Assembly (NCBI GenBank): GCA_011033025.1
Contig: WFMF01000227.1
Location: 124,001-188,000, forward strand
From: Beroe forskalii
Lineage: Eukaryota > Ctenophora > Nuda > Beroida > Beroidae
DNA: 64,000 nt
Direction of reading: 5' to 3'
How positions within the stretch are numbered: position 1 is the first letter of the stretch; each line of letters begins with the position of its first letter. Shown piece after piece: positions 14,208 through 57,300 of the stretch. The notes beneath the pieces were generated by a model. The model was not told the origin of the DNA. It made no database searches and saw only the letters and a list, made by a program, of their open reading frames with translations. Made by a program: the position numbers and the translations under genes.

Positions 14208-17200
14208 ACAGTGCAGTTCGAACTGCAGTTTGCGCGTCCTTATGTGTGCGCTGCTGAAGTTTGTGCGTGGGGGGATTGTAGCCCAAAAAAAACCAAAAAA
14301 AACCAAAAAAAACCAAGCCCAAGATCCCAAATTTGGGGTAGGGCTTGGTTTTTTTTGTTTTTTTTTTGGTTTTTTTTGGTTTTTTTTGGGTTGGATTTTT
14401 TGAACTTTTTGGACATTTCACACCAATGTGTTATTTATGCTATTTACATGTTCTTATTAATACTCAATGGTTTCCAATCATTACAGATGGCTTAAATCAC
14501 TATTTCAGGGACTTTATTAGCATTTGAGAAGCATTTTATGAGCCCTCAGTGCTTATATCACGGAAAATCATGAGATAGCACGGGACCTTGGTCCAACAGT
14601 GATTAGAGAAGAACAGTAAAGGATCAAAAGGTGTCGAATCAGGCCATACTGGTCTAAACAAGAGCGCTCTGGCCACTCATTACCACGTAGGGGTTATTAA
14701 AGACTCGAGGGTCCTTCAAAAGGTCGTCCTTGGTTCACCAGGGGCCGGATGACGAAGGGCCAAGGATTCACCAAGCGTTACATCGCATCTCAGGGCGAGA
14801 TAAGGCTTCATGAGGAGGTCAGACTCGTGTCACCAGAGGGCCAGAGAAGTGTTGCAGGGAGTCAGCTGGGAGTCACAAGGGGGCAAGAAAGGACCAACAA
14901 GGCACCAGGTGAAGGTCGCCAGATGAAGGTCGGCCAGTTGAGAGCAATTTAGCATTCTTGCTTAAATTATGATTGACAAAGGTCAGCCACAATGATCACC
15001 AGAAGACCAGTTTGAAGGCACTTAGTCACCAAGCAATGATAAAGGCTTCATCAGTCAGCAAGGCTTGATTATCGATGCTCAGCATATCTTTCACGAGCTG
15101 TCAAAAGGTCATCTGTGTGGCAAAGGGACAGGCAAGTGCCACCAACTTCTTGCGAGAGTCGACTTGTTGATGAAACGTGTCCTACTGTCCTGTGAAGTCA
15201 TAATTGAGCAATTAACACTGGGAGAAGTGAGTCTGAAAAGGATCAGGAGACGCCAGCTGTAGGTCAGGTAGGATCATGAGACGCCAGTCATAGGTCAGGT
15301 AGGATCAGGAGACGCCGATAGGTAAGGTGGGATCAGGAGATGCCAGTACGTCAGGTAGGATTAGGAGGCTCAGGTAGGATCAGGAGACGCCATTATCCAA
15401 TGGGTCAGATAGGATCAGTCCAGATGCCAGTAGGTCAGGTAGGATCAGGAGACGCCAGTAGGTCAGGTAGGATCAGAAGACGCCAGTAGGTCTGGTAGGA
15501 TCAGGAGACATCAGTGCACAGTAAGTCAGGTAGGATCAGGAGACACGAGCTATAGGTCAGGTAGGATCAGGAGACGCCAGTTATAGGTCAGGTAGGAACC
15601 GGAGACGCCAGTAGATCATGTAGGATAGTAGACACCAGTAGGTAAGGCAGGATCAGAAGATGCCATTAGGCCAGGTAGGATCACGATGCTCAGGTAGGAT
15701 CAGGAGACGCCAGCTGTAGGTCAGGTAGGATCAGGAGACGCTAGTCATAGGTCAGGTAGGAACTGGAGATGCCAGTAGGTAAGGTAGGATCAGGACATGC
15801 CAATAGGTAAGGTAGTATCAGGAGATGCCAGTACGTCAGGCAGGATCAGAAGACGCCAGTAGGTCTGGTAGGATCAGGAGACATCAGTGCACAGTAAGTC
15901 AGGTAGGATCAGGAGACACCAGTAGGTCAGGTAGGATCAGTCCAGAATATGCCAGTTGGTCAGGTAGGATCAGGAGACGCCAGTAGGTCAGATAGGATCA
16001 GGAGATGCCAGATATAGGTCAGGTAGGATCAGGAGACGTCAATTATAGGTCAGGTAGGATAAGGAGACGCCAGAAGATCAGGTAGGATGAGGAGATGCCA
16101 GTAGGTCAGGCAGGATCAGGAGAAGCTAGTAGGTCAGGCAGGATCAGAAGACGTTAGTAGGTCAGGTAGGATCAAGAGACGCCAATGGCTAAAACAGTTA
16201 CCTATTTGAGCTTTTAATTTAAGTTTTACTACCGGGTCAGGCAAGAAGTACCAGCTGGGTCACAGGTAAGTGTCTGCTGTCACCTATGGTCAGGCAATGG
16301 TTGAAAATATTAAAGTAGGTCAGGTAAGAGTCGCCAGTAGGCCAGATAAGATTCCTTATTAGGTCAGCTAAGGTTGTCAGTAGGCCAGGTGAGAGACGCT
16401 AGTAGGTCAAGTAGGAGGCGCCAGGCTAGGAGATCAGGTAATGGGGAGTCACCAGTCATTGAGGAATTCAGACAAAAGGCCTAACTTGGTCACAATTCGG
16501 GTCACAATTTGGTCAGGCAAGAATCGCCATCTGGAACGGGTAAAGGTCACCAAAAAGCCAATAGGTCAGGCAAAAGTCATAATTAGTCAGGCTAGAGAGA
16601 AAGAGGCCCTTGTTGGTCAGGTCAGAGTCAACAGTGAATTATAAAAAAAATAGGCAAGAGTTGCAAAGCTGGACAGCACTCAGCTTGTCAGCCAGGAGTC
16701 ACAGCCGCTCAGGTTTGAGGTCCCATTGGATCAGGTCATAGTCACCAGTGAGTTAGGCAAAAGTTACAAGCTGGGTCTGGCATGGGTCACCAGTCACTGA
16801 GGCAAGAGTCACCAGTAAGTCAGCAAGAGACACCAGTTAGTCAGGCAATATTGTGCATTTTACTGTAAGGTGATACCTAAGCCCTTCAAGCTCTGAAAAT
16901 GTGAAAATAGCCGTTTCTATTCACCAAATAAACTTTAAAAAGCCACTGACTGTGAAAATTATGTTCAAAAACAACAGATTTTTTATGTCAAAATTCATTG
17001 GAAAAGCCCCAGAAATGACCAAAATGTAACCCAAAAAAAACCTAAAAAAACCAAAAAAAACCAAAAAAAACCTAGCCCAAGAATCGAAAAATAGGGTAGG
17101 GCTTGGTTTTTTTTGGGCTACAATCCCCCCGTGCGTATAAAGTATAGACACAAATAACATGCCTGTACGACGAGCACGAAAAAGACGCGCACGAAAAAGA

Positions 17201-21627: not shown

Positions 21628-21714
21628 TCAAAGCTGCGTAGAAAATATCTCAAGAATGTTCTCGTAGCTTGGCATTTCCTCCAGGTCAATTCGAGATAAG
21701 TCCCGGTCTCCCGA
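21628..21714 (-). CDS. YAP1: YAP terminal exon with stop codon
   Basis: Follows CTCATTTCAG, opens SGDRDLSRIDLEEMPSYENI and ends FSTQL then TGA. Entry phase is 0, matching exon 11. The acidic hydrophobic pattern and the final T-x-L fit the C-terminus of YAP. Four further copies of the acceptor and first ~20 exon bases lie just upstream. Confidence 0.8.
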   Translation of the reverse strand, partial: SGDRDLSRIDLEEMPSYENILEIFSTQL

Positions 21715-24700
21715 CTGAAATGAGATGAAATTTGGTGAGATAAGTCCCGGCCTCCCGACTGAAATGAGATAATATTTGTTGTTTGGTGAGATAAGTTCCG
21801 GTCACCTGACTGGAATTAAATAAGATAATATTTGTTGTTTTGTGAATTGTGAGATAAATCCCTGTCTCCCGACTCAAATGAGATAACATTTGTTGTTTGG
21901 CGAGATAAGTCCCGGTCTTCCGACTGAAATGATAAATCATGAATACTTTTTTTTACTTTTGAAGCTGTGCAACTACCTCGGCTTCGTCTCGACGGTATCT
22001 GCACAACTCTCAAAGTAAGAAGGTTTTGATCAATTATTATCTTATTATAGAGCCCTCGGACGTTTCATAATTCATCGGTGTCTATAAAAGTGACAATTGC
22101 CTGATCGGGTCCAAACCGGATGTAACCCCAGGCTGCGCCCTCGGGAAGTATCCTAAAATGGACCCAATAAGCGCGTGTCTATGTATTTTACAGTAGTAAT
22201 TCGACACGTACAAACGATAGTGAAATTAACAACGGAAGCATGATGTCAAGTATTTGATAAGGCGGAACAGAGTGTTAACGTGTGAAACAGTTTAACAGCC
22301 CAAATATTCTTCTTTGAATAATAACGTGGTAATATGGTATATATCTACTTGTATGGAGACAGGACTGAGGGCTGCCTTAGGGGAGGGAGGAAATCTCATT
22401 TTGAGTAAATTCTTAAATTATAATTATCTCACTGGGGTCGCGACATGATCGAGATATGTATGACAGTCATTGTTGAATTTCCGAGTCGCGCGCACTGAGT
22501 TCATGCTGTGAAATGCTGTTAAATTAAATATTATAGTATCACGTACGTAAGTATCCCAGGGGTGGAAATATTCTTAGATACTTACGACGCGAGTTCTGTG
22601 AACGCCTTCTGAAATTTTCAGACGATCAACATTAATTGTATTCGTACGTACCGCATACGCCATACTTGATACTGATTTAACAGTATTAAGTTTATTCACG
22701 CACGTACAAAACGCCGCGCGATCGGAAATTCCAGACAGATTTTCATTTTTTGAACTAGTGACACCTATGTTAGATATGTCGCGACACCTGTCAAACATTA
22801 ACTAAAGGTAGTAAGTAATTGACGATGAGTTAATTGACAGTTTCGGAAATGAGATAAATACCCATGATGAAACTATCATATTATAGTGAAACTAGTGGGC
22901 TATTGCTGAGTGATTTTATAGGTACACTACAGGTCAGCCCTGACACTTACTTTATGATTTTATCACTAATCACGCCCAAGCGAGACAAGTGATTTTATCT
23001 CGTGTGGGTGGTATAATCTCAACATCTCCCAAAAACGTGATGATTTTATCTCCTGAGACATAGTTCAATAAGGTTTTATCATCCAAATCTAAGCTATATA
23101 TCGAACAGGATTCATAATAGAGAAAAACTTAGCGAAATACTGCTTTGAGTAAGGGTGGGTAGATTGGTTTTGAATATATCCTATGATAACCATGCTTTGA
23201 CTGGCACACGTTTGTCTGACACACCCTCGAATTTGTAGTGTATAATGTTGCAGTCTAGTCCTAATGGCTGGTGGATATATGATAAGACAACATGAACTTT
23301 AATAAGTGTGACCTACTTTTTTTTTCTTTTTTTCGTGCAATATCCAACTGGTTATCACATCCCCTCTCGGGGACGGATTGCAACTCTCAGTTCCAATGAG
23401 AGTTTTACTGGGACCCACCTGGCTGCAAGTGTGACCTGGCTGCAAGTGTGACCTGGCTGCAAGTGTGACCACTGTTTCAGTATGTCACCCTTAGGGCGGC
23501 CTTCAGAATAGAAATTTGGGTAATACGGCCATAAATGTAGCCACAATCTAAAGTGCTTCTTGGGTTTGAACGTAAAAAGTAATCTACTTCGCGTGAAACC
23601 TGAAGTAGAAAACTTACATTAGGTACATTTAGAGTACCAACCTCTAAAGTTCTAGAACGTAAGTTTTAACGTAAATTTTAGAGTTAGTTTCACTATGCAT
23701 CTATTTTAAGTAATCTACTTTGTAAGTAATCTTCTCCCTTACTTCACATCAACAACAGACTACTTGAAATGACGTCATTATCATAGCTCTAACTGGAGAA
23801 AAGATGACGATATTCTAAGCGTCCTGTTTGTGGGTTGGAGGCTTTAGGTTTAACGTTTCATCATCTCATGTACTGAAGACCTAGGTTCTAGGTTTCGAGA
23901 AACTTACACGTTGCACGCTAGCACTGTGCTAACATGTTAGGTCTAAAACAAGAGATCGTACGTTTTACAAACTTACAGCAGAAAAGAAAGTTTAGTGGGA
24001 TTTTATTTGAAATGATAAAATTAAATTTATTTTAATTTACAAACTCAATCCTTGCTCGATTGAGAACAGATATCGTGCTAAACTGCTTAACAAAGGTAAC
24101 TGACACAATCACGCGTAACCCAAAATAAAACGTGTGATAGATATAAAACATGGCATTTTGTTATAAAACGGCTAGCGTTAGTTTGCCAAAATTTGAATTT
24201 TCACCTGCGTTTTTTTAACGCGTGACTTTATAGAACGCGTGACCCACTTCATATATCACGTGACCCACCTCTGAGTTGTAGATGCCCCCGGCGTCCCCTG
24301 ACTCCGTCCCTATGTCCATGTGCTCTATCAGCATCCGGTCACTGTCCGTTAGTTCCGTGGAGTTACCTCCCCCCGCCAAATGGTGCGCTTCTCCAACGTT
24401 ACGTGACCTGAGGGAACATTAGTCACGTGATCTGAGATTATAAGTCACGTGACCTGGAAGGGGGAAATAGAAGTGGTCAGTGAGTCAGTGGTGTAATGGT
24501 ATCGAGTGTGCCATGCAACCGAAAGGTCCAGGGTTCGACTCCGGGCCATTCCCAGTTCCCACTGAGGTAAGGGAGGGTTAGTTCCGTGGAGTTACCTCCC
24601 CCCGCCAAATGGTGCGCTTCACCCAACGTTACATGACCTGAGGGAATATTAGTCACGTGATCTGAGATTATTAGTCACGTGATCAGGGATTATAAGTCAC

Positions 24701-27700
24701 GTGACCTGGGTGTGGGTACTATTGGTGGTCAGTGAGTCAGTGGTGTAATGGTATCGAGTGTGCCATGCAACCGAAAGGTCCAGGGTTCGATTCCCGGCCA
24801 TTCCCACTGAGCTAAGGGAGCGTTAGTTCCGTGGAGTTACCTGGACGGGGAAGTTTCTGATATATAATAATCGTTTCAAACTTTTACCAAAAAAGCAAAA
24901 TACGAGAAGCGTGTTTTTAATAAACGTTCAGTTGATCAGAGAAAATTGTTTGGATCCGGAACTCAGAGAAATGAAGGCACATTGTTCCAAGTTCACGAGA
25001 CACGTGACGCACTAATGAGGGTCAAATTCTAAGTCATCTAAGATAAGATAAGATGAAAGACTCAAGACTGCCAAAAAGTATACGAGTTGATTACCAATGG
25101 AAGATTACAAGTACTTTTCCCATGAAAGAACGGTACCAAATAACATTAAACCAGCAAATTCCAAATGTACCTAAAGTCTCAACACGTACATCACACAATT
25201 CTACCATAGAATTACAAACCACGCAGGTATTCTAATACTCTTCAGACGGGGGGGGGGGACGATTGCAGTTTTTTGGATTTTTACTACGGTGGGGGACAGT
25301 TATTTAACACCCTCCCCGTTTAGAAATTTTGAAAATTTTGAAAAAAATACATACATTAATCAAAGAAAAATTCATATTATTTGTTAGAATTGAGCAAAAT
25401 CAAGCAGCAACCTGAAAGCTTTGCCAACTGTTTCTCGATCTGAGTCCATATCTTAGATCAATTTGGGCATTTCAAACCATTCGATTGAAATTTACTTCCC
25501 CCTCCCTCTTATTTGCAACCCCCCCTTTTTACGACATTTTTGAAAAACCTACACAGGGGGACAGTTATTACAGCCCCCCGTCTATTTGAGACTGAAGAGT
25601 ACGTGATAAGTACTAACTTGCTGGCTGTTGTTGTTGTGTCACGTGACTTTGTTGTTGTTGTTGTTGTTGCCTAGCAACGATGTCACGTGGGGGCGGAGCA
25701 GCGTGTTGTGATTGGTCGGTGGGGGTCACGCCTCCCCGTACGTTCCTGGGAGGAGAGGAGGAATTTGATACCAGTGACAGATCAACGTGAATATAGGGAG
25801 TTTCGTCTAAAATCCATTTATTTTAAGATTTTATTATTCATATTTTAGTTTAGGGTGACAGTTTGAACTGCAGTTAGCGCGGCTTTTGAGTGCACGGTTT
25901 AAGTTTATTTTGCAAGTTTGCGCGGTGTTCAGACATGTTATTCATTTGTCACTACGTCGTGCACACATATAAATTTCTTTAATTTTTAAGGGAGGTAAGT
26001 ATTTATGATTCGATGATTAGTTTCATCAGACGGATCTACTGTATAGATTCTACAAAGTATCCGTCTGGAAATAATCTGAAGGAATTGAATAGGCGCCACC
26101 AGATGGAAAAAAAATGCGCGCGCGCGAAAAACAGGCTGTTATTAAACTTCGAAATAATCAAGAATTTAAAACCATTTTAAAAAATGAAAGGCCATTTCAA
26201 ATCATTCTAAACCATTGTAAAAGACCATTTAAAAAGTTTAAAAGACCATTTTAAACCGCCATAATGATGTCATTTCCAGGCACATATTATGTTGTTCCCG
26301 CATGGCCTTCAATGAATTGGCGCCGTTATATGAACTATCGGTGCAGTTGGTTCGGCCGATGAACACTTTATTACAGACCTTATTCTTCTCAAATCAACAC
26401 AATAATAGTATTAATCAAATCAAATTAAAATTGAGGATGGAAGGGCTAAAATAATGACCGGACAATACAGATATTAATTGATATATTGACGACCTACGGG
26501 GTGTGCAATAATTATTAACTTTATTAAAGTTATTGTCAAGGGAAGCAATCAAAGGCGCTTCAGTTTTAAAACAAAAGGTTTATTAATAAAAAAAAGTCAC
26601 ATGGAGTGTCAGGCTGATGGGATTTAAATTGAACTTGGGCTGACAAAGGATCTAGACCAAAGCTGAACTTCGGGGCAAAATTCTGGTGGAAAGAGTATAT
26701 TACCCAGCCATCCGTTTTGAGATAATTATCATCATGTGTGAAAAACCCTAAATCTTCTGAATTGAGGTTTTTCAATCTGATCAAAGAGAGCTTGCAAGCT
26801 TTTTAAAATTTCTAGATTCTTGGACTTGGTCAAATATTGGGGCTCATATATCTATCAGCAATCTTTTCTCGGGTATAGTAAAACCCAACATATAATTGAG
26901 ATTGGAGATACACACACGTACGTACAAACTACGTCACAACAAGATGTGATGAGAGCTGAGAGGGAGTTGATGATGTGTTTTCCTTTTAGAACGTGTAGTT
27001 TGTACGTCATCTCTATTAAAAGGAGGCGTGTGTATTCTCACGGGCGTTTTTTGCTGGTTTGTTTGTTTGAGTGTTTGTTTGAGTGTTTGTTTGTTTGTTT
27101 GTTTGTTTGTTTGTTTGTTTGTTAGTGTGTTTGTTTGTTTGTTCGTATCCTCATAATATTTTCCCACAGGTTCATGTGTTTGTCTGTAAATATAAATGCT
27201 GAATAATAATGTTTACCTACACACACTACACACACTTTGTCGGCAAAAGGCAAGATGTAGTTCATACATTGTACTTTCTAACAAAAGTTAAAGTGACGTT
27301 ATGTGCCCGTTACAATGACATCATTATCATGGCACAATGTAGTTAGTTAATGACGTCGAACCGCCTATTTTTAGATCAGAAGTTATAAAGTGACATACAT
27401 TATACTTTCTAACAAAAGTTGAAGTGACGCAATATGTCAACGGTAGGCACCTGCAGTTCCAGATCCGTCCATTTCTTGCGTCATTTTGTTAACATTTTGA
27501 ATGGATTATATACACACACTTTGCCATGACAGATGGCAGCTATATGTGTATTGGCTCTGTAATCTGTATAAATTGACAGGAAGCTTCTATATCTGTGTAT
27601 GACAACATTGACAGTTTTGCCGCCAAAAGGCAGAAAAAAAGGGCGGGAAAAGTTGTGGACTTTTTTGTGATTTAATGCTGATTCTCAATTATTGACTGAT

Positions 27701-30700
27701 TCTAATATTATGGATTATAAAAAAGTTCCTGGGCATGAGAGGTCTCAAATTTGCGTTACTGTCGGGGCTCCCATACTTTCCAGCCCCATTAATTTTCATA
27801 AAATGAGTTAGATTTACAGTTATCAAAATTCTGTTTCACATTGTTAAATCTAAATTCAAATATATTTACACTAAATATAAACTCAAAGACATTACTGTTT
27901 AACTTCATCATTTGTGTTCTTGAATCTTTTGTAAATATTTATCCAGACGTACTTACGTATATTGTCATACAGGTGTTAAGATAAAGAAATGTAATCTGCA
28001 AACAATTCCCATGATTAACAAGAGAATTAAAACGTCTGTCCTACACTTAAGACTTTCACCCCAAAGGTTTGTCTTGCGGTTGTGTTTTATATATTAGATA
28101 TTAATGTTTTTGGGTGGTAGGGCCATTCCGTGGTAATGCTCAGTTAGGCACATGATGTCGTAGAAATATGAAAATCGAAGGGCCGTTGCCGGGAGCGGGA
28201 CTTGAACCCACGACCTCAGCGATAATGCATCGGGTGCTCTACCGCTGAGCTATCATCTGTGTTCTTCATCTTTGGTAAATATTTGTCCTACGTAAATTGT
28301 GATAGGTGTTAAGACGAATAAATGTAATCTGCAATCGTACCCAATTCCCATGATTAACGGGAGAATTATAACGTCTGTCAAGACCCCTACCGATGAAATA
28401 TTGGCCTCTCCTCAACTTTAAAATAGGCACGTGTATGCGTTCATCAGTTCATCATTTTAATACATGAAAATGACGTCATATTAACCTGCCATGCACTCAG
28501 CTGAACCTTTTACTGTTTATTATATAATAATACAGTGTTAAACTATTAATAAATATAGATCTGAGAATAGGGCCAGTATAAAACATGCTAAATGTATGAT
28601 ATTTCTTCAATCATAAGGTCCACACATGCCAAGACTAAGAAGATCAACTTCATCAACTTATTACCTTTACCCGTGATAATAACTTCATACAATTCAACCG
28701 CCTATATCTCTATATCTATTTTTGCGCTCATAAATTAAACCTGGTCATAATACAGGGTAAAACAAGTTATCTATACTTTTAACTATAGTCCACTAACATA
28801 ATCTATAAAAAGAAAATTATGATATATAAAGTTAGCTATATTAATTATCTGTGTTAAAAGTTGGGCGGTAACTCCGTATTGTTGTGATGCATGTCGTGTG
28901 CATTGATTAAGTAAACCGAACAACTTTTTAAAAAACATATACATCTCTAGGTAGCGTGATACCAGTAATTCAGTAAAACAGTTATTCACAATTTTCAGAT
29001 ATGATGATCTGAAGTCATTGAAACCATATTGGTCGATGGTGTTTCACATTATAATGTCACATTCTCAAAAAGCGATTGCTAGGAAAAGTGAAGCCCACCA
29101 CATTATATCTTTTTTGAAAGGGCGATTACATTTACAGCTGTAACATTTACACTATAACAGTGGAGGACAGTTAGTTGAAAATGATCTCAGCATTACGCTC
29201 TTTTTCTTTTTTGCAGAGTTATGTTGTTGATGACTTCTATCTGCAAAGCATTGAGTGCACAGCTTTCTTAAATCAGCTACTCAACATTTAATTTAATTCA
29301 CCCCTCTCTTACTTGGATCCGATCCCTGGTCCCTTTCTACCACATTTTTGAAAAACCTAAAAGCAGTCCCCCCCTATTTGAAACTGAAGCATAGGTAGGC
29401 ATAGGTAGGCTTATACAACTTTCGCGAGTCCAACACTCGCCCTTCTCCAGATTTACCAAAATACATTAGAGTGATTAAGCATTATAGCATCGGTAGTGTT
29501 TTACAGCCTGGAAGATGATGATATGTTTTTGTGTACAATTTTGGAATCTGTATAAAAAATCTTATATCATAATAATATGCTCTTACTAAGTGTCAAACTT
29601 ATAGTAGGTTGAGTATTCTAATCTGCCCATGAAGACAACCGGGCGGTCCATAAATGACGTCATTATCATAACTCAAAGTGGTGAGTTGATGACGTTTGTC
29701 CCCGTATAATATTTTGGCGCACGAGCAGCTCAGTTGAGGTGTCAAAAACATATTATGTACCGCACAGGTCAAATTGGTGGCTCCTCGTCTTCAGTTCGCC
29801 ATTCTAAACCATGATAATGATGTCATGCGACCCTGTCCATCTGTTTTGAGAGGATTTTGCTATATGTTTTTATATATATCATATACTTTGGATGTTGTAT
29901 GTTTTTTTTCTTGATGATCATATAATGTTCTTTGTATGGATTTAAAATATATTATAACCATGAAAATAAAATCTAAAATTCTGAATTAAGACATGCCAGC
30001 CATGATTAAAAAAGGAAGGTAAAAGGTACTTTAATACATTTCGCATCCTGATTCGATGACAATCTCGTACATGCTTTTTTTCGGCACTGTTTTAGGATAC
30101 GCTATTTCATGACCATATGGAACACTTTTGTATTTTAAACCAAAATTTCGAGTCTTCATAACTTTTCTTCTTATTAAGAATTAAATTGTACATTATTCTT
30201 AACGAAATCCAAGATTCCAGAAATCAAATATTTTTAGGAGCAATTAGCGATGCACATTTGGGTTTTGAAAACAAAAAATCAGCCCAAATTAGCGTTGATT
30301 GCTCAAAGCTCATCGAGCTATGGGGAGAATAACCGAAGCTTCATCCTGGGTCCAATCTCTCCCCCCCCCCCTTATCTTGGTATTCTGGGGTATGAAGCTA
30401 TAAAACCAACCATTTAATGAGCTTATGCTACCCGATCCGTGAAATCAGCTTATGCTATGGTTAAACTAACCTCTGGAGGGTTCGGTGTACTCTGGGAAGG
30501 GGGAGGTGATGATTTCCATGCTTTGGTCCTCTAACTGGTGGGACGGCATAACTGAAACACAAGGAAAAATTGTGAAATAACTGAAACACAAGGAAATATT
30601 GTAAAATAACTGAAACACAAGGAAATCTTTTGAAAAAATATATATTGAGTGAAAAAAATAGATATTCAGTTTTATGAACTGGGTCACATATGAAAGGTCG

Positions 30701-33700
30701 TAAATTAACATTGAACAAGAATTCAATGTAGAATTTGTGTAATTTTGTGTAAGATATGCTTTGGCATGGAAGTTTCCAGCAAAAATCCTCCAGAATTGCA
30801 ATATTATGATGCACCTCAATCGTCATTTTATTATTAATACGTCACACTTACATCATATATTGTGTGATTCATAGAATTGAAAGTGTGTGAACATCAAATC
30901 TTACATCATTTCATACTTGCAGGTAAGTCCTATATAATATATTCCTTAGCATATAAGAAAGGTCTTACATCATTTCACACACATTGGCACATTCCATCTA
31001 CATTGCCTTTATATGATAGTTTCTACACGTTACTAAACCCTGCGAACGAGAAATAGGCGGGTAGGATGACGGCATTATCATAGCTCAATGTAGTGAGTTG
31101 ATGAAGTTGAACCGCCTATTTCTCTTACGTGTCGTTTAGATGTTGTCTTTCTACGTAAAGAATTTGTGTACTTCAAATTTCAATGCACAGCATAATATGA
31201 TGTTAGCTGTACATTGAATTCACATAAATGGCAAAGGGCGAAAGTACCTTTTCAAGTGACAAGTGTAATATGTACAATGTACAATAATTGTACATATTTT
31301 AAGCAAACGATTTTGTACATCGTGCGGTGCAGATTTTACATCTTTAAGTTTCACGTGAAATACTTTCACCCCTTAGTCTTTATCATGAGAGAATGAGGAA
31401 AGACCTAGCCATTGCATTGTTGTATTAACAAATTAAGTGTCACAGATTTTGTGTGTGAAAGACCTTGGATTGGCAGTCAAATTAAATTTACCCATGTTTA
31501 TAATTATGCCTGGGATCTTTCAAATGAAATGAAACAAGTGTCACCTGAAAAAAAAGAAAAAAGAAAAAAACTTGAAGCTTGGAGAGTTGAAGGAACATAC
31601 GAGCATATCAATAACCCAATTAGTAGCTTAGCCAGCTTATTAGGTCATTAAGTAACAAATTCAGTTACTACCCAGTGGGCAACGTTCCGGTCGCCGGTGA
31701 TGCTGGTGGCCGTGGAATCCTAAAACTTCTCGAAGTATCGAAGTAAGTAAGACAATAGACCCAATTAGCGCCCCACTGACCCCAGTTAATGAGGTAATAG
31801 GCCCCATTTAGACCCAATTAGCACTCACCCCAGGGCTCGCTACTGGAGTGCTGGTGGTTGAACTGGGGTTGTTGGGACAGGAAGTTGGGGTGCATTTCTC
31901 CGGTGCTTGGGGGCGGCGACTCAATCGTACACATATTGTTCAAGTTCGTTACTAACTGGTTTTGCTGCGGGAGGGTTGAATGTTGTCATCATCAGGTTTT
32001 GAACCATTTTTCTGCCAAGGGCAGAAATAAACTGAGCAAAGACGTTCAGATACAGACCATGACTGAGTTAAAACATTGACTGTGTTGAGACGTTCATTGA
32101 GTTAAGAGTTAAGAAATTTAGAGACAAAGAAACAGAAACTGTTTACAATTTACAGTTCCCACCCGCTTACCTTGTGATGATCAATGGTTTGCTGCATGTT
32201 ACCATGGTAACCGGTCATGGTGTGTTGCTGGTAGGCCCCGCCCCTTCCGTCCACACTCTGGGACCTGTAGTGGACAGGAGCAGGGCTACCCTGCTGCTGG
32301 GCTGGCTCCAGGGGCGTCAACGGACTGAAATTAGAGGGGGTGGAGTTAGGGGGGAATGAAACGGAGGGGGCATCAACGGACTGAAATGGGAGGAAGTCAG
32401 ATGGGGTCAATTGAATGAAATGGGGGGCGTCAACGGACTGTAATGAGGGGTGGTCAGATGGGGGAGTGAAACGGAGGGGAGGGGGAGGCGTAAACGAATT
32501 GAAATTGGGGGAGTCAATGGGGGGTCATCGAGCTGTGATGAGCGGTTACATGGGAAGAAATGAGATGGGGTTCAATGGGATGAAATGAGAGAGGGTCAAT
32601 GGAGCGAAATGGAATTGGGAGGGTTTCAATGGGATGAAATGAGAAGACTATTTTCTAAAGTTAACTATTGTTATGAAGGGACCATTATTTTGAAGATTGC
32701 AATCGGACAATATAAATTAGAATTACGGAGCACACAACACAATAGCATAAAATAGCATACAGATAAGCAACACACAAATATTTAAAAAACTCGCACCAAC
32801 TTTGGAAAACAGTCGCCCGATTTGAATTAAGGTCATCAATATTGTCTCAATAAACCTTAGGTGACCTTAAAATAAAGAAGCTTCATTTGGGTTGAACCTT
32901 TCTTCGAAAATCATGTAAATGAAGTTTCCAGGAACGATACGGACGAAATATTTGGGTGAATTCAAATGAATGAATTTGAAAACTGGTCAACTACAATCAG
33001 CGAAAAAAAGAATCTGCCACACTTTTTAACATTTCCCAATCAAATCATAATTATGTAAACTTTGAAAAAGCTTCGGAGTTTTTCAGGTTTTCTTCGCCTC
33101 GTGGGGTGGGGGGGTTCACCCCTCATATTTTTTGGAAAACGAACAAATTGAGATATGTGTTGGTGGTTCAGGTCGTCCTAGCCAACTTTTATCCCAAATT
33201 TGAGGGTTGAACCCCCTAATTTTCTACACGAAGCTTCTAGAAAAGATACGAATGCAAAAAATAATCGCCATCTCCGCATTCTTAAACGTGACATGATTAG
33301 AATTCGTCACCACACACCTAGCTCTCTTTCTAAGGATGATGATTCTGGTTAGCATACCACTTGGCGAACCAAATGTTTGCAGTGATTAAATTATCTGATT
33401 ATATTTTACCAGCATTCTGGTTTAATGTATGGGGGAAAACACATATTTTATGCAACATGAGATCACTCCAGTAATCTCGCGAAGTATGTATGTATTTATA
33501 TATCTCATGGAGATTTTGATTGTTACCAAATATGGGCAAATATTTGAACACATATATCAGCATACTCATAATTTCATCTGAAATTGCTATAATAAAAATG
33601 GGAAAATATAATTTGTGACGCAGATAAATTAAAATTCTTTTCCTCTCCATTAAAAGATAAAGGACTTTTGGCATGCTCTTTTAGGAACCTTTTCCTTTTT

Positions 33701-39700: not shown

Positions 39701-42700
39701 ATAACCATTATATAGTTACATTATAATAACTTTATATATATAATAATATTATGTAGCTAGCTGTATACACTGCATTGCTAGTGCATATAGTCGTACTATT
39801 ATAATATATATATTATATACTGACTTCTGTTTTTGCATATATTCACTTCGAATTACATTAAAGTATGTAGCACTCTCTCGTTGACGCGTCTTATATTGCA
39901 GTGTAAAAATAATGATAATATATTATATGTAACATATGTTGTATGGAAATGCGCTGTGTATTTTCGTATTTTCTCTTATAAAGTTATAACTACAGTATGA
40001 CAGTATGTGAGTTACTATAAAGTAGGTTTTATCCAACATTAACTACAAGTCATATCCAGTAAATTTAACAACAAGTTTAACTACAGGTCATAAGATAAGT
40101 TAGACGTTTATGAGCCATTTTATAGGATAAAAAGGAAGCGATGTAGCAAAAAGCAAAAGGGCCATGACAAAATGCTAATTTGACAGTTTTTTAGAGTATG
40201 GATTGGATAAGCTGATCACTCATGGTCTTGAGTTGGTGTGAAACGTAACATTTGAAGTTTTGGTTGCCACCAACGTGGTGACAAATGTGACAAATTTCCG
40301 GTAAGATTATATGATTATAAGAAGATAAAACTAGGTAATAATAATCACCTTATTTGAGAGTGTAACTAGAGTGTAATAATGTAAAAGTGCAATGTATGTT
40401 GCATCACCATTCACCAGTACACATGGGCTGACATAGGTACTCCTACAGGATGCATGATGTAAACCTTATTAATTTATTACAGGAAATGAAGCCTAAGAAA
40501 AATTATCATACATTAAATTAGGCCTAGACATGAAATTGGGCCCTTTAAGGCCGTATAACAGTAACTATTTATGTATATTACTTTTATTAAGATAAATGAA
40601 ATACATGTTACATTATAGGGACGCATGTATAGTTCTCAGTGGAGCATTCACCAAATGTATGCGGTTTACAGTCCCATTTCAATCCTTGATAATGACGTCA
40701 TGTAAGCTCCTCGCTCTTTTCATATGAAATATTTGTATACTTGAGGCGTATCGTATGTCATTACTCACTACTCAGTCACACACATGCAGCTATTTGATAT
40801 TAATAAAATACATAGACACGTGCGGGTCGGGTCATTTTGGGATAGCTCCCGAAGGCACAGCCCGAGGGATCTATCAGGTTTTGGCCCGAGCCCGTAATTA
40901 TTTTCGCTCCAATAATGGTGAGTAAATGAATATAAGTAGGTAATTAGTACAAGTGCGTATGATGTATAATTTTATAAATCACTGAAACACCATATCATTA
41001 TAGTACATCAAGGATCTACGAATTTATAACCATACCTTTATTTTAGATACTTAATAAATCAAAAACACAGAGACACGAGTTGGTCCAATCACTGCAACTT
41101 TGAACTGTGTTTTGTAGATTAAAATAGGAAATATGCACACTTACCCTTTTCGTTGTCTGTTTTGGTTAACACTTTTTGGTCGGAGGTTTCCTGAGAGTCT
41201 GGGGTCCGTGCTCTGACACGGCACTATGGCGTCTGTAGACGATCTCCCTGGTGACGAACAGGTTGTTAATTAATTAAATGAGGTTGTTAATGAGGTCAAT
41301 TCAGACTGGGTTGTTAATGAGGTTTTTTAGAAAAGGTTGTTAATGAGGTAAATATAAATCAGGTTGATAATGAAGTTGTTAATGAGGTTAATTTAGATTG
41401 AAAACGATTCTAAAGACCTCTTTAGAACGCAGTTTAATCATGTCGCAAAATTGTGAAGTACTGAAGTAAAATTTTTAGGAACAACGGTCCAAATTAAATA
41501 ATTACCTCTAGGATCTGCAAGGGTCCGTCGAGGGTCCACCAAAGTCCTTTGCCCGGTTTGTTCATTTAAAAAGACAGTCTTTCCTTGCTCATAAAACTGT
41601 TTCCATCCAACCGGCAATGGGTCAGCGTGTCCTGTTTTCAAAAACCACATTAATGATTAACATGTTAATTTAATCCTGTAAACCCTGTAAATCTTAAAAC
41701 AAAACTGCTTGAGATTTAAATACAAACAAAGTATAAAATCCTAGGCCACATTTTCATAAGGTGTCCTTGGGCAGTAATATAAAGAGAAGCTCAATCTTGC
41801 AAGGTCAACTCCATGTGAATACAGCCCTTACCTGGAGGTAAGATCTTATCTTTGGACACCACGTAGTTGTGTTGCAAGGACTGCTGCTGGTTTTGCTGTT
41901 GTAAGGGGGCGGTTTGCTTTCTGGGGTCGTTCCACGTGGTGGTCTTGGTGTTGTGGCTAGAAACAGTTAGGTCAGTGATCACACTACTTCGATGGTGAGC
42001 ATTAGAATCTCAACATTAAAATCAATTTAAGTCTAGTGATCATTGAATAATGAATATCTTGAAACCTATTATTACATAAGAATCTCTTGGTTGGCAAACA
42101 GCAGCATCAGGGATTTACTCCATGAGTATTCAAAAAAGAATAAATCAAAATCACGTGATTCTCTTCCTCAATAATATGTCCAGATAATTCTGTGAAATAT
42201 TGTTTGACTCACTCCAGGAAGTAAGGGAGTCCAGCAGGTGAGAACCTCATTTCCCAGCCTGATGGAAGGGGTATTGTGCTGGTGTTATGGACACGCCGTG
42301 GCTGGTGGGAATCAAGGGATCGTGCCCTCTTGTGCTCCGCAGGTTGTCTAAGGAAGTTTAGAATCAGTGTAGCCAATATATAGTTTACTTAAATGAATGA
42401 TCTGATGGTTTAATTTGATAAAATAAAATAGAGGCCATTTGGCCTATTTTTATGTGAATGTGGAGTTTGTTTTGCAACTCACACTTTCAATGTGTATATC
42501 TTTGACAAACAAAGGAAACTTACTGCCAAAAGGAGTCAGGTAGGTTTCTGTCCCTCATGTTCCCAGGCAAATGAGCCGAGTTGAATAACTTTTCCAACTC
42601 ATTCTGAAATTTATAGGTATTGTTTTGAATGAATTTTTATGAGCTACGTATAATAAAACAAATAAGCAAATAGCTGGTCTTCAAATGTTTGAACACAAGC

Positions 42701-42862
42701 CCTTGAGTTGGATAAGTCATACTAAGTATGAAATTATTCCCCTTTAATTGGATTAGGCACATCATTGCTTTACTTCAATTTACTTACCTCACTATTGCCA
42801 CGGATATGAATGCTATATTTTCCTTTATTTACAACAATAGTTTCAGCCTCTACTCGGTTCAT
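21628..42862 (-). CDS. YAP1: YAP (Yorkie) transcriptional co-activator of the Hippo pathway, complete
   Basis: Eleven coding exons on the minus strand: 42862-42788, 42603-42524, 42347-42213, 41956-41832, 41631-41506, 41247-41145, 32324-32171, 31964-31829, 30551-30471, 24366-24269 and 21714-21628. All donors are GT, all acceptors AG, every phase matches, and the total is 1200 nt: 399 codons plus TGA. Residues 16-52 form the TEAD-binding region (IHIRGNSENELEKLF, then LPDSFW). HKRARS (57-62) and HYRSQS (233-238) fit the LATS consensus HxRxxS. WW1 (about 79-110) has both tryptophans (83, 105). WW2 (about 144-173) keeps W148 but has Leu at the second Trp. The Gln/Pro-rich tail includes SPFPEYTEP and ends STQL, a class I PDZ ligand like vertebrate LTWL. 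YAP shuttles to the nucleus to activate TEAD when LATS kinase is inactive. The ATG follows an in-frame TGA. Confidence 0.92.
21693..21932 (-). repeat. Five tandem copies of the YAP terminal-exon splice acceptor
   Basis: In transcript sense each copy reads CTCATTTCAG/TCGGGAGACC and then GGGACTTATCTC. Copies occupy 21693-21724 (the one that continues into the exon), 21737-21768, 21788-21818, 21851-21882 and 21902-21932, spaced 44-63 bp. Every copy keeps the AG. In the copy at 21851 the acceptor is GAG. Confidence 0.85.
22598..22792. mobile_element. MITE family B, second copy (degraded)
   Basis: Shares GATACTGATTTAACAGTAT, GCCGCGCGATCGGAAATT and the flanking GACACCT with the element at 2239-2393. 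The left terminus is degraded. It lies in the last YAP intron. Confidence 0.6.
23419..23469. repeat. Three perfect copies of a 17-bp unit
   Basis: CTGGCTGCAAGTGTGAC repeated three times in the last YAP intron. Confidence 0.85.
24269..24366 (-). CDS. YAP1: YAP exon 11 (tenth coding exon used)
   Basis: Reads NSTELTDSDRMLIEHMDIGT, then ESGDAGGIYNSE, before the donor GTGGGT. Entry phase 1 and exit phase 0 match exon 9 and the terminal exon. The acceptor directly in front (GGCGGGGGGAG) is weak. A much better one (CTTCCCCGTCCAG) sits in front of another copy of the exon's first bases at 24840, so the exact start may differ or the exon may have been split by insertion. Confidence 0.7.
24475..24552 (+). 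repeat. tRNA-like (SINE-type) sequence, copy 1
   Basis: Pol III boxes are intact: A box TGGTGTAATGG (24489-24499) and B box GGTTCGACTCC (24532-24542), at normal tRNA spacing. The acceptor and T stems do not pair properly, so I read it as a tRNA-derived repeat or pseudogene and not a working tRNA gene. Confidence 0.55.
24728..24805 (+). repeat. tRNA-like (SINE-type) sequence, copy 2
   Basis: Nearly identical to copy 1. A box TGGTGTAATGG at 24741-24751 and B box GGTTCGATTCC at 24784-24794. It is antisense to YAP, immediately upstream of exon 11. Confidence 0.55.
25853..25975. mobile_element. MITE family A fragment in a YAP intron
   Basis: Begins GGGTGACAGTTTGAACTGCA and keeps GCGCGGTGTTCAGACATGTT from the family interior. 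The right terminus is missing. Confidence 0.55.
27057..27142. repeat. (GTTT)n microsatellite
   Basis: About 20 units of GTTT with a few GAGT/TAGT interruptions, within a YAP intron. Confidence 0.9.
27905..28379. repeat. ~130-bp direct repeat bracketing a tRNA-like sequence
   Basis: 27905-28041 and 28253-28379 share long blocks such as AATGTAATCTGCAA, AATTCCCATGATTAAC and AACGTCTGTC with small indels. Between them lies a sequence ending in a minus-strand tRNA-like unit. Confidence 0.7.
28182..28258 (-). repeat. tRNA-like (SINE-type) sequence, minus strand
   Basis: A box TAGCTCAGCGG and B box GGTTCAAGTCC are intact and correctly spaced. The acceptor stem does not pair, so it is probably tRNA-derived and not a functional tRNA. 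It lies in sense orientation within the YAP intron. Confidence 0.55.
30471..30551 (-). CDS. YAP1: YAP exon 9: activation-domain segment
   Basis: Follows the strong acceptor CCTTGTGTTTCAG and reads MPSHQLEDQSMEIITSPFPE, then YTEPSR, before the donor GTTAGT. FPEYTE parallels the FPDYLE segment of vertebrate YAP. The acceptor is repeated twice more upstream (see the repeat at 30549-30630). Confidence 0.8.
30549..30630 (-). repeat. Three tandem copies of the YAP exon-9 splice acceptor
   Basis: In transcript sense TTCCTTGTGTTTCAGTTAT occurs three times at a 29-30-bp period. The AG positions correspond to exon starts at 30551, about 30580 and about 30609. Only the first continues into coding sequence. 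Confidence 0.85.
31048..31124. mobile_element. 77-bp micro-element (best full copy of a dispersed family)
   Basis: Terminal inverted repeats GAGAAATAGGCGG and CCGCCTATTTCTC enclose a core of the form TGACGNCATTATCATAGCTC, then AATGTAGTGAGTTGATGA. The same core recurs in both orientations about 16 times in the window (see findings). It lies in the YAP intron between exons 8 and 9. Confidence 0.6.
31829..32324 (-). CDS. YAP1: YAP exons 7-8: proline/glutamine-rich activation region
   Basis: Exon 7 (32324-32171) follows CTAATTTCAG, reads PLTPLEPAQQQGSPAPVHYR and continues through SQSVDGRGG to IDHHK before GTAAGC. HYRSQS is a second HxRxxS LATS-type site. Exon 8 (31964-31829) follows CTCCCGCAG, encodes MHPNFLSQQPQFNHQHSSSE and ends before GTGAGT. 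Both frames are open only in the phase demanded by their neighbours. Confidence 0.8.
32315..32505 (-). repeat. Three to four tandem copies of the YAP exon-7 splice acceptor
   Basis: In transcript sense ATTTCAG/TCCGTTGACG recurs at about 32315-32332 (used), 32371-32388, 32428-32445 and, degraded, 32488-32505, at a 57-60-bp period. More distant GGGTCAATGGGATGAAATGA-like units continue to about 32640. Confidence 0.8.
32640..36900. other. Interior of the long YAP intron, no gene seen
   Basis: AT-rich intron sequence. I see two micro-element copies (about 34828-34850 and 36325-36385) and short repeats of CACAAAATCCACGAATTAGC near 35145-35195. No open frame looks like an exon. Confidence 0.4.
36909..37332 (+). 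pseudogene. LINE (non-LTR retrotransposon) C-terminal fragment, frameshifted
   Basis: Two overlapping frames (36909-37097 and 37069-37332) read as one decayed protein end. The second contains CEHCPGTKETAEHFIGECPA and then YAHIR, the Cys-Cys-His-Cys finger found after the reverse transcriptase/RNase H region of many LINEs (family knowledge). A shift near 37080-37095 breaks the frame and no RT core is present. It is antisense within the long YAP intron. Confidence 0.6.
37240..37610 (+). repeat. Tandem duplication of the LINE tail (~170 bp, two copies)
   Basis: CCTTTGCGAATTTGGCCCAA starts both copies (about 37250 and 37412). Each continues through CACAAAACAGG and ACGAGCACAGGGCAA to GGTATATCTTATGGAAACTC-like sequence. 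The second has an extra ~45 bp with CCCCACTCGCTGGGG. Confidence 0.65.
38515..38850. repeat. Tandem palindromic repeats (GACGTGATTTCAAATCACGTC type)
   Basis: Alternating units GACGTGATTTCAAATCACGT and CACGCTCAGATCAGCATTTTG form two large direct repeats (about 38535-38640 and 38700-38810), each made of smaller palindromes. A related GC-rich block with GCCACGCTGAGCGTGGC lies at 39095-39120. Confidence 0.75.
39240..41100. other. AT-rich part of the YAP intron, no gene seen
   Basis: Only one micro-element copy (40664-40701) and simple AT repeats (39700-39830). Confidence 0.4.
41145..41247 (-). CDS. YAP1: YAP exon 6
   Basis: After CACCAG the exon reads RSSTDAIVPCQSTDPRLSGN and onward to NRQRKG, and ends before GTAAGTG. 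It is Ser/Thr-rich and basic. Its phase (2 at both ends) links exon 5 to exon 7. The intron just upstream contains six copies of AGGTTGTTAATGAGGT (plus-strand sense, 41260-41400). Confidence 0.75.
41506..41631 (-). CDS. YAP1: YAP exon 5: second, atypical WW domain
   Basis: Reads DPLPVGWKQFYEQGKT, then VFLNEQTGQRTLVDPR. The first Trp, the aromatic pair position (VF instead of YY/YF) and the closing DPR are recognisable. The second conserved Trp aligns with Leu, and the His/Asn turn is replaced by EQTGQ, so peptide binding may be weak or absent. Confidence 0.88.
41832..42347 (-). CDS. YAP1: YAP exons 3-4: LATS site and first WW domain
   Basis: Exon 3 (42347-42213) carries HKRARSLDS, an HxRxxS site at the position of the vertebrate HSRQAS site just after the TEAD-binding region, and then PLPSGWEM. 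The intron splits WW1 after PYFL. Exon 4 (41956-41832) completes it with HNTKTTTWNDPRK and continues into a Gln-rich stretch. The intron inside the WW domain joins in phase. Confidence 0.9.
42524..42862 (-). CDS. YAP1: YAP exons 1-2: start codon and TEAD-binding region
   Basis: Exon 1 (42862-42788) begins at ATG and ends GGCAATAGTGAG before GTAAGT. Exon 2 (42603-42524) follows TAAATTTCAG and ends TTTTGGCA before GTAAGT. Joined, they read YSIHIRGNSENELEKLFNSA, then a short loop and NLPDSFWQ. This is the same order as the TEAD-contacting helix and LPxSFF loop of vertebrate YAP (family knowledge). The linker between them is shorter than in vertebrates. Confidence 0.92.
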
Positions 42863-43523
42863 TAGACTCGTACCTCAAAGAAAGGGATTTTAAACAAAAG
42901 ATTGGAACTTGGCAATTAGAGTGTTTTATTATTATATAGCTTTTTAGTATTGATATAAGTAGATAAAATTATTTAACTTCACTGTGCTTGAATGATCTAT
43001 TGATAGTGTCCTTAATGGTGGCAGTTCAAACTTCAATGAGATCCATTTTTTTGATTTTCAATTTAAGTTACAATTTTTCAGAAACATATACTTCTGCAGA
43101 TGTTTACACACAAGCTTAACAGTAAAAACAAAGATTAGTTAAACAAAGATTTAAGTTTATATGGGCCAAAATTTTCCTTTATTAGAATCATATCAATTCA
43201 AATTAACAATTATCAATCAATGTCAGTAAATTATGATAAACAATATATCAATCAACAAAGAAGAAACATAACACATATCTTAAAAATTGTACAATATGAA
43301 ATACCAAGTTTCTGTTTGTTTAAATGTTTATTTTACTTGTTTTCTTGTTTTATTAATTGCAAATAAAAATCATAATATACATAGTATAAAGTTCATAGAA
43401 AGTAATATTTCATTGAAATACGATGAAAAGTGTCACACAACACACTCACACTGCAGTCATTATGACTGCCTAATAATAATGTGCAAACATTATATTCAAT
43501 GCAGTTGAACTGGACTGTACCAA

Positions 43524-44879: not shown

Positions 44880-48257
<3,378 letters not shown>

Positions 48258-49300: not shown

Positions 49301-50724
49301 CGAGGCAAGGGTCTGTCAACGGCCTTCAGTTTCGCGACAAGCATAGCTATACATATCATGTGCTGCGCTCGCAATGCGCGGCGCGCAAATGCAGCGCAGC
49401 CGCGCATTGCTAGGGTGCGCCCTTTTTTCAAAGTTTTTTGGGCACAATTCTTCACTGATAGATCTCGATGAGCTGATCACGAATATATCAAGTTTTTTGA
49501 AATTGGACAACGCCTTCCTTGTCCGCAGGGGCTTTTTGTGTTTCATGACGTCATGTCACGTGTCATGTCACGTGACCCGTCTGCTAGTGCTTTGTGCGCT
49601 GGTTGCTTCCGCGCGCGCGATTGTTATACTGTGCGCGTTCGCGGATCTGTCACTCTGATGGCAGAGTAATTGCATGCATTGCTTAAGCGTATGTTAGTGG
49701 TGCTATAGGTCCAACGTTTCAACTTTTAAAGCTTATAGTAATACTGAAGACGTTCAGAAGAAACGCATGAACTAATCGGGTTTGTTTCTTTGTTCAATAC
49801 TGTAATAGGCTGATTCAGCTTAGCGGATTGAGTTAAATTGACCCAAAGATGGCATCATCAAGTATACGAGAGAGCAAAAGAATCAAAATGATTTAATGAT
49901 CTTAGAAAACTCATATTACCAATACCTCAGCGGATCCATATTTTTAAGCAGATCCGCAAAGCTAAGACCAATCCCGCGCTTAGCTAAGCGGATCCGCTTA
50001 GCAGATTCAATCATATTATCTAAGCGGATCCGCTTAGCTTAGCGGATCCGCTTAGGATGGAACTGTGTCATGGCAATTTTTCTGAATTTTATAATCGATA
50101 TGATTTTCAAAAAAACGGTAAGCTATCCGCTGAGCTTAGCGGATCCGCTTAGCACTAGCAGATTCAATCATATTATTTAGTATCTAAGCGGATCCCTTAG
50201 CGGATCCGCTTAGGATGTAATTGTTTCATGGCAAGAAAACGGTAAAGTGACACTTGACCGTCTTGACCCCCAACATAACATCCCCCGACACCACGCCCCC
50301 TACTTCAGTACTGTGAATCTATAGAGGAAAGCAGGGGGTCAAAGGTCGCTGTTTGACGATTGTTGCAACATTTGACTCCCCCGCCCCGACAATACATCCC
50401 CCGATCAATAAGCAACAACATCAAACGACCTTATCCGCGGCAACATCATCCCTAGATAGGCATAGTAAACTCCCTTGCAACTGTGGCGGGGCGGGAGTTC
50501 AGATGTCGCACCATCGACCTAGTGACAAGCAACATGAACCCTATCAATAACAAGCGCGGGATTCCGATTAGACACCGATTGTTAACCCGGACATAGCCCT
50601 TACTTGTGATAGCAGTCTCGTTCTACTCCATATCCCAGCATCTTTCCTGACATCCTGGAAAGTGCACGACTCTGGTCCCGGAAATTCTCGAATAATCATT
50701 CTGACTACCTACACAACAGAACCA

Positions 50725-50868
50725 TGATTTCCTCCGTCAGTCTTCGATTCGTCGATTAGACGAATCGAATCGACGAATCGAATCGACGAATCGAATCGAC
50801 GAATCGAATCGACGAATCGAATCGACGAATCGAAGACTGACGGAGGAAATCAAGGGTTCTGTTGTCAA
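50725..50868. repeat. Nested palindrome with tandem CGACGAATCGAAT units at the centre
   Basis: GATTTCCTCCGTCAGTCTTC at the left and its exact complement GAAGACTGACGGAGGAAATC at the right enclose an asymmetric core. A short GATTCGTCGATTAGACGAATC hairpin comes first, followed by five to six tandem CGACGAATCGAAT units. Confidence 0.85.
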
Positions 50869-51240
50869 AATAAAATGGCTATGAATGAATATGATCAGAT
50901 GTGAACGAGATATCGAGAGAAAATGCTGAGACCAAGTAAATCAAATACAATCACAAAATCATGGCTTTTCAGGTTAATAATCGTATCTAATCCCGCGCTT
51001 GTTATTGATAGGGTTCATGTTGCTTGTCACTAGGTCGATGGTGCGACACCTGAACTCCCGTTCCCAAGCACAGTTGCAAGGGAGTTTACTATGCCTATCG
51101 AGGGGATGTGATGTTAAGCCGCGGATAAGAGCGTTTGATATTGTTGCCTATTGATCGGGGGATGTATTGTCGGGGCGGGGGAGTCAAATGTTGCAACAAT
51201 CGTCAAACAGCGACCTTTGACCCCCTGCTTTCCTCTGTAG

Positions 51241-51489
51241 ACATTATTGTGCGTTGTCCGTTCTAAGAAACTTAAGAAGTGTGTTGTGCAGTTAAAAGTG
51301 GATTGTTGTGACTAGGAGAGTGAGTAAGTGCGACGTGGGTGTTCGGAAAAGAGTTCTTTATGAATTGGAATTGTGGTTTCGTTACTCTCATCACAGTATT
51401 TGATTCTTCCCGTGAAATGCCGTCTTCACTGGATACAAACATCAGAAAAAGAGCCACGCCCCACTCAACAAAACATTAAATTGTTTACA
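51241..51489. mobile_element. 249-bp insertion in the right palindrome arm
   Basis: Absent from the left arm. Flanked by CCTCTGTAG (51232-51240) and CCTCTATAG (51490-51498), a 9-bp direct repeat with one mismatch, while the left arm has a single corresponding site. No clear terminal inverted repeats. A minus-strand 61-codon frame inside has no recognised similarity. Confidence 0.55.
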
Positions 51490-54246: not shown

Positions 54247-54715
54247 TGTTAATTGGAAAACAGATGGTAAGCAATGAAACACTATAGCTGACTCCAGATA
54301 AAACCAATCTGAAATATAACAATCAATGATGTAAATGGAATGATATCAAAGTCATATCACGATCACATATTATCGCAATCATATCAAAGTAGCAAATAGT
54401 TATATTACAAATCATATAACAAATATAACTTAAATAACATATACATAATATATCTTAACTCACCACTGGGGTGAACAGTAATACACTTCAGCACAACTCT
54501 ATAAAGAAGACATAACCTAGTGAGAGTTGGAATGTTAGAATCTAACAATCTCCCACCTAACTCAGAACTTCTAAAATAGAAAAATAGGAAAGAGTTAGGT
54601 ATATTAACAATCTCCCACCTAACTCAGAACTTCTTAACTAATAAGCAAGAAAGATTTATATCAACAATCTCTTACCTAACTCAGAACTTCTAAATAAGAA
54701 AGATCTCATTTAACA
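54247..54715 (-). repeat. 3' LTR
   Basis: 469 bp, TGTTAA...TTAACA, nearly identical to the 5' LTR. It includes three to four internal copies of CAATCTCCCACCTAACTCAG, one of which resembles the polypurine tract (in complement) next to it. Confidence 0.9.
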
Positions 54716-54726
54716 ATCTCCCACCT
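54716..54726 (-). other. Polypurine tract
   Basis: AGGTGGGAGAT on the minus strand, immediately 5' of the 3' LTR. This is the expected place for plus-strand priming in reverse transcription. Confidence 0.6.
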
Positions 54727-57175: not shown

Positions 57176-57300
57176 AATAGTGCTCTCACCAAATCGTGTT
57201 GCTCAGTTGACAAAATGTTTGTTTTTATCTTTAGGGCATTATGGGTGTATTTCTAGCCACTCCTCAAGATTTGAAGCAAGAGAATATCTAGATTTCTAAA

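Follow-up and report, generated by a model that had tools for sequence, protein, structure and literature searches.

Tandem arrays spanning 3' splice sites in the YAP gene of the comb jelly Beroe forskalii share the anatomy of amphioxus mirage minisatellites

The gene for YAP lies on the minus strand of a 64,000-nucleotide stretch of the Beroe forskalii genome assembly (contig WFMF01000227.1, positions 124,001 to 188,000; C278:124001-188000), hereafter called the window. In this gene, the 3' splice site and the first exon bases of exons 7, 9, 11 and the last exon are repeated in tandem, with 2-4 further copies upstream of each exon. It is highly probable that these arrays are minisatellites of the mirage type known from amphioxus, that is, the product of ordinary minisatellite growth that ran through a 3' splice site and is tolerated since splicing uses the copy attached to the exon body. 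The four YAP arrays are regarded as separate local events, in a genome whose sampled introns consist of minisatellite to about 6-13%.

The YAP exons are covered by a YAP protein of a sister species (P0001, 463 amino acids), which is encoded on a contig of 1819 bases. This protein most likely derives from spliced RNA of a relative, since these 1819 bases encode exons that are spread over 21 kb here. The arrays are as follows, with a slash marking the splice junction:

32310..32524, minus strand: exon 7 acceptor array, four copies of ..ATTTCAG/TCCGTTGACGCCCC at 56-61 bp; the exon start is supported by a junction in P0001
32542..32644, minus strand: more degenerate continuation of the exon 7 array on its upstream side
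30548..30638, minus strand: exon 9 acceptor array, three copies of 29 bp, ..CCTTGTGTTTCAG/TTAT
24327..24842, minus strand: exon 11 array, three copies spaced 229-252 bp, the distal copy truncated, each with AG/GTAACTCCACGGAACTAAC
24736..24818, plus strand: repeat of about 83 bp resembling a transfer RNA (tRNA), within the exon 11 array
21693..21945, minus strand: last-exon acceptor array, five copies of ..TCTCATTTCAG/TCGGGAGACCGGGACTTATCTC with spacings of 44, 51, 63 and 51 bp

An earlier reading made from the sequence alone had proposed these four arrays, and all four were confirmed at the coordinates it gave. For each acceptor, the window from -30 to +25 was aligned to the 500 bp upstream; a score of at least 36 was counted as a hit, and under a strict rule the best alignment had to cross the junction. 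The acceptors of exons 7, 9, 11 and the last exon scored 42, 48, 89 and 60, and the best of 500 first-order Markov resamplings reached 27, 26, 24 and 24, respectively. Four of the 12 YAP acceptors and none of the 11 YAP donors were hits; the remaining eight acceptors scored 13-25 and the donors 13-31, with exon 8 as the top donor (31). Among the 12 acceptors, position 42872 marks where the first coding exon begins; it was off by one base in the scan and may be no acceptor. Under the strict rule, three of the 12 acceptors (exons 7, 11 and last) remain. The best alignment at exon 9 ends at -1, and its copies share TTAT by eye, so that the junction is crossed there by eye only.

The copies of the exon 7 array start at 32310, 32366, 32423 and 32484 (spacings 56, 57 and 61), and the last copy, 32310-32350, contains the acceptor of exon 7 (exon start at 32324). 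In the exon 11 array, CCTCAG/GTCA(C or T)GTAACGTTGG is present in two copies. The same reading had also stated that the AG is kept in nearly every copy. By eye, this holds for exon 9 (2/2 upstream copies) and the last exon (4/4, one of which reads GAG), and less well for exon 7 (2/3). Its range of 4-22 repeated exon bases would be exceeded at exon 11, where about 60 are included if the exon starts at 24407, but that start shifts the frame in the assembly.

The arrays of exon 7 and the last exon match only themselves in the 216-Mb genome searched (1134 contigs). Apart from its tRNA-like piece, the exon 11 array had no match elsewhere in the genome, with 40 of the 297 candidates scored. A single mobile element behind all the arrays was therefore rejected for those of exon 7 and the last exon, the exon 9 array not having been searched, and recurrent local duplication, as the earlier reading had it, agrees with these searches. 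The tRNA-like repeat has at least 43 other genome matches among those listed (79-94%, 40 of 297 candidates scored). It gave no Rfam hit and no ARAGORN call, and is possibly a tRNA-derived short element.

At exon 7 (start 32324), exon 9 (start 30551) and the last exon (start 21714), P0001 supports a start at the last copy of the array. Use of the last copy is thus suggested by the putatively spliced protein for three YAP exons, and elsewhere by conservation of motor domains. The proposed course of events would begin with a short tandem duplication having one breakpoint in the intron end and the other in the first 4-60 exon bases, and the duplicate would then have grown through slippage or unequal exchange. 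The duplicate would sit on the intron side, so the exon beside the last copy would be unchanged. The message would stay normal as long as the spliceosome uses this last copy, to which alone the complete exon with its donor is attached (exon definition). Copies farther upstream would be passive and skipped, even though they often look like perfect acceptors. Both the mode of growth and the role of exon definition are inferred.

Similar arrays were found in other genes. The sample was built on Pfam hits for the myosin head, the kinesin motor and UCH; of the 248 listed, 187 that were judged to lie in the analysed DNA were used, and two of these fell outside the analysed pieces. WW matches were left out. 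Splice sites were predicted without RNA as the best-scoring AG or GT near the end of each Pfam match, and paralogues among them are not independent. Sites had to reach a minimum score, to come from a match end off the model edge and to have enough flank; with duplicates dropped, this left 151 acceptors and 133 donors. A local copy upstream (score at least 36) was present at 18/151 acceptors and crossed the junction at 12, one of which (C225:1041609) resembles a duplicated exon rather than a short-unit array. A local copy downstream was present at 4/133 donors and crossed the junction at three. With Tandem Repeats Finder (TRF), arrays lie over the junction at 8/151 acceptors and at 3/133 donors (C785:21044, C897:28164 and C240:201059). 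The strongest acceptor arrays are the following:

C897:44256, kinesin: unit of 56 bp, at least 27 copies (27.8 to the edge of the analysed DNA), reaching exon position +41; the exon encodes LVDLAGSE
C164:6142, kinesin: unit of 58 bp, 7.3 copies, reaching exon +41
C29:5258, myosin: unit of about 69 bp, 7.9 copies, reaching exon +38
C225:1032914, myosin: unit of 34 bp, 7.9 copies, reaching exon +6
C897:28164 (L068), kinesin: acceptor array with a unit of 30 bp, 14.9 copies, reaching exon +5, and donor array with a unit of 45 bp, 22 copies

YAP is not clearly exceptional among the sampled genes: 4/12 against 18/151 for any hit (p 0.045) and 3/12 against 12/151 for junction-crossing hits (p 0.064), both unadjusted for the choice of YAP by eye. 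A similar acceptor core (CCTTGTGTTTCAG, CTCGTGTTTCAG, CCTTGTGTTCAG) is common to the arrays at YAP exon 9, C897:44256, C225:1032914 and C947:373365, and a core similar to CTTGTGTTTCAG recurs in several arrays. On another contig, a kinesin open reading frame (861 amino acids in the analysed DNA) is, along its length, 75% identical to Bolinopsis microptera KIF28P, 90% identical to an ENA protein, and 56% identical to amphioxus.

The start of exon 11 allows a different account of one of the four arrays. The gene runs from the TEAD-binding exons through two WW domains to exon 6 and on to the last exon:

41506..42872, minus strand: YAP exons with the TEAD-binding part and WW1/WW2 (42872-42788, 42603-42524, 42347-42213, 41956-41832, 41631-41506); acceptors not duplicated
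41145..41247, minus strand: YAP exon 6; acceptor not duplicated
32171..32324, minus strand: YAP exon 7; junction RQRK-G-PLTPL in P0001
31829..31964, minus strand: YAP exon 8; acceptor not duplicated, donor score as given above
30471..30551, minus strand: YAP exon 9; junction SEPW-V-MPSHQ
25618..25745, minus strand: YAP exon 10; acceptor not duplicated
24596..24637, minus strand: possible mini-exon of 42 bp in the second copy (HVTLGEAHHLAGG), from frame and P0001 match only
24595-24367, minus strand: candidate gained intron between two AG/GT sites, likewise from frame and P0001 match only
24269..24407, minus strand: YAP exon 11; acceptor at 24407, or AG/GT at 24366
21628..21714, minus strand: YAP last coding exon (SGDRDLSRIDLEEMPSYENILEIFSTQL stop), from sequence and P0001

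The start at 24407 fits P0001 (HVTLGEHHL-GNSTEL). Against the use of the last copy, the frame from 24407 hits a stop inside the exon, while the copy about 230 bp upstream stays in frame. The duplication may instead have led to intron gain by giving AG/GT in two copies: the second copy, CCTCAG/GTCATG..GAG, would serve as a 42-bp mini-exon, which would be spliced over 24595-24367 to 24366. GAG/GTAACT follows 24596 and precedes 24366, so that AGGT is present in both copies and gives a donor and an acceptor. Among seven exon chains compared with P0001, the chain from exon 10 through the mini-exon (24637-24596) to the AG/GT at 24366 is in frame and scores best (453); the other in-frame chains score 418, 415 and 399, and those out of frame 168, 151 and 126. 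Such a gain is also near a documented route, as far as the available text of the two reports goes (PMC4974935; model in PMC3087553). Nevertheless, the candidate acceptor at 24366 has no pyrimidine tract, and the frame break in the last copy falls in a G-rich stretch. The frame of exon 10 also fails to join that of exon 9 in the assembly; it is one base short compared with P0001, in a G-rich stretch, which suggests small indel errors in the assembly. A sequencing slip is therefore the simpler account of the exon 11 frame, because exon 10 lacks a base in a similar stretch, and the intron gain at exon 11 is considered unlikely.

Another possibility is that duplication is centred on acceptors, some feature of the 3' splice site (e.g., the pyrimidine tract, an R-loop, or repair near the branch region) starting tandem duplications more often than other sequences do. 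Several observations point this way and weigh against growth that is indifferent to the splice site. Acceptors exceed donors in the sample, both for junction-crossing duplications (12/151 vs 3/133, p 0.036) and for any overlap (18/151 vs 4/133, p 0.0065). In the profile of local matches, the final 200 bp of introns stand at about 7-10% and the first 180 bp at 2-5%. Inside YAP, which was picked for its arrays, 3/12 acceptors are crossed vs 32/629 intron positions. However, acceptors do not exceed the intron windows placed 100, 200 and 300 bp upstream of them, of which 15/150, 11/122 and 7/121 are crossed, the first two sets lying partly in the same arrays as the acceptors. The windows downstream of donors are crossed in 7/130, 7/105 and 6/105. 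In a first pass at the same score threshold, hits fell on 12/93 acceptors, 3/82 donors and 9.0% of 1140 random positions; the 151 acceptors overlap that set, and the two are not independent.

The TRF results bear on the same question. Coverage drops rather than climbs toward the acceptor junction, being 13.2% at -40, 8.6% at -10, 5.3% at 0, 2.0% at +30 and 0 at +50 (n = 151); the junction is covered about half as often as intron positions 100-300 bp away (5.3% vs 9-13%). At donors (n = 133), coverage is 2.3% at the junction, 5.3% at +20, 8.3% at +150 and +200, and 12% at +500. With TRF, neither the mean cover of the last vs the first 200 bp of introns (11.9% vs 6.9%, p 0.17) nor the junctions themselves (8/151 vs 3/133, p 0.23) separate acceptors clearly from donors. 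Arrays thus cross acceptors at no more than the rate of the nearby intron, and have faded out by about exon base 45. Acceptors may differ from donors because they tolerate arrays better, or because arrays arise with a slight bias toward them; weaker tolerance could explain the donor deficit equally well. Duplication centred on the acceptor, which the sequence-only reading had proposed, is accordingly rather improbable: the excess over donors stands in the alignment counts, as does the one inside YAP, and the excess over the surrounding intron does not.

That reading had also offered selection for acceptor arrays, the copies acting as decoys or as alternative exon starts. The upstream copies do often retain the AG and score like true acceptors, and the reading frame of exon 7 is open through its own array. 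Yet the AG is intact in 82/101 upstream copies (81%), little above the 77% expected from other sites, and selection for it has no clear support. In this count, nine of the 12 non-YAP arrays gave copies, C164:6142 and C897:44256 together contribute 51 of the 101, and the YAP rows contain a wrong start (exon 11b) and mis-registered copies (exon 7); without them the count is 75/87. In acceptor strength, the upstream copies are similar to the last copy over 10 arrays (Wilcoxon p 0.55), and at C897:44256, 19 of the 25 upstream AG copies in the analysed DNA score at least as high as the last. The YAP last exon runs counter to passive, equivalent copies, as its final copy is a stronger acceptor (9.3 vs a mean of 4.8); its upstream copies may have decayed or been selected against. 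In 7/10 arrays, the distance to the closest upstream copy with an AG is not divisible by 3, and splicing to that copy would therefore shift the frame. Unit sequence and length also vary from array to array. Selected acceptor arrays are thus very unlikely.

Mis-assembly that made or lengthened the arrays can be nearly dismissed: the window does contain a run of 1,529 G and probable small indels, but the copies diverge among themselves, each site has its own unit, and arrays of this type occur on several contigs.

The window contains other repeats and one anomalous run, as follows:

15239-16184: minisatellite of 946 bp with units of 28/56 bp (AGGATCAGGAGACGCCAGTAGGTCAGGT)
46728-48256: the G run, uninterrupted by any other base and almost certainly an artefact of assembly or sequencing
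49409-52425: inverted repeats of 290 bp, 99% complementary and 2.4 kb apart, with longer arms at about 90%, resembling an element of the DNA-transposon type
54247-57176: two direct copies of 470 bp with 99.6% identity, 2,460 bp apart, reminiscent of a short element with long terminal repeats

These arrays offer natural tests of how the spliceosome chooses among near-identical acceptors, for example at C897:44256, which adjoins an exon of the motor core. RNA with junctions cleanly at the last copy would argue strongly for exon definition there. If it is true that some arrays gave new introns, intron birth would be in progress. A far-reaching version, which we consider a long shot, would have mirage arrays genome-wide in this ctenophore lineage, tolerated selectively on the acceptor side, where splicing would choose the final one among as many as dozens of equivalent acceptors from the exon alone. 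These arrays would be a live source of introns, YAP exon 11 being already split by an AG/GT pair that duplication made.

Among known systems, introner-like mobile introns place similar structures at introns of many genes. Unlike these, the arrays of exon 7 and the last exon match only themselves in the genome, and that of exon 11 recurs elsewhere only through its tRNA-like piece, among the candidates scored. In the ctenophore Hormiphora, TRF marks 13% of the genome, according to the part of the report available (PMC8527503). A potato gene is described, in the text available, as having gained an intron via tandem duplication of an intron end and an exon start (PMC4974935). The AG/GT in the copies at YAP exon 11 resembles this case, whereas the ctenophore arrays mostly seem just to lengthen an existing intron, and the exon 11 intron is a candidate. 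In human segmental duplications, tandem repeats occur at exon-intron boundaries, and the available part of that report describes recent primate paralogues and novel introns supported by RNA (PMC2812944). Both kinds of array lie at exon-intron boundaries and are able to alter gene structure; unlike the human repeats, the ctenophore arrays are read from DNA alone.

The closest counterpart is the mirage minisatellite of amphioxus. The sequence-only reading was aware of no earlier description of such a feature, a statement that has to be given up, as amphioxus mirages are of this kind (PMC3087553, PMC3902484). In amphioxus, tandem repeats cross intron-exon boundaries in Adh3, the globins BflGb6 and BflGb9, TnC and PGBD5. 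Splice signals are present in many copies, both boundaries are affected, and normal splicing is reported (PMC3087553, PMC3902484). The units measure 10-72 bp in Adh3 and 150-160 bp in the globins (PMC3087553, in its available part). No report of mirages in ctenophores was found in the open-licence literature searched, mostly by title and the start of the abstract. The ctenophore arrays differ in lying in conserved motor-protein genes and YAP, in having up to at least 27 copies, and in being known here from one assembly alone. As in amphioxus, the repeat unit spans the intron-exon boundary (strictly at YAP exons 7, 11 and last, by eye at exon 9, and at 12/151 other acceptors). Unit lengths are also alike, 29-63 bp in three YAP arrays and 30-69 bp in the strongest others, with the longer exon 11 unit at 229-252 bp, and both 5' and 3' boundaries are duplicated (TRF arrays over 3/133 donors). 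The ctenophore arrays share the defining anatomy of mirages in another phylum, and a feature known from amphioxus is thereby extended to a comb jelly.

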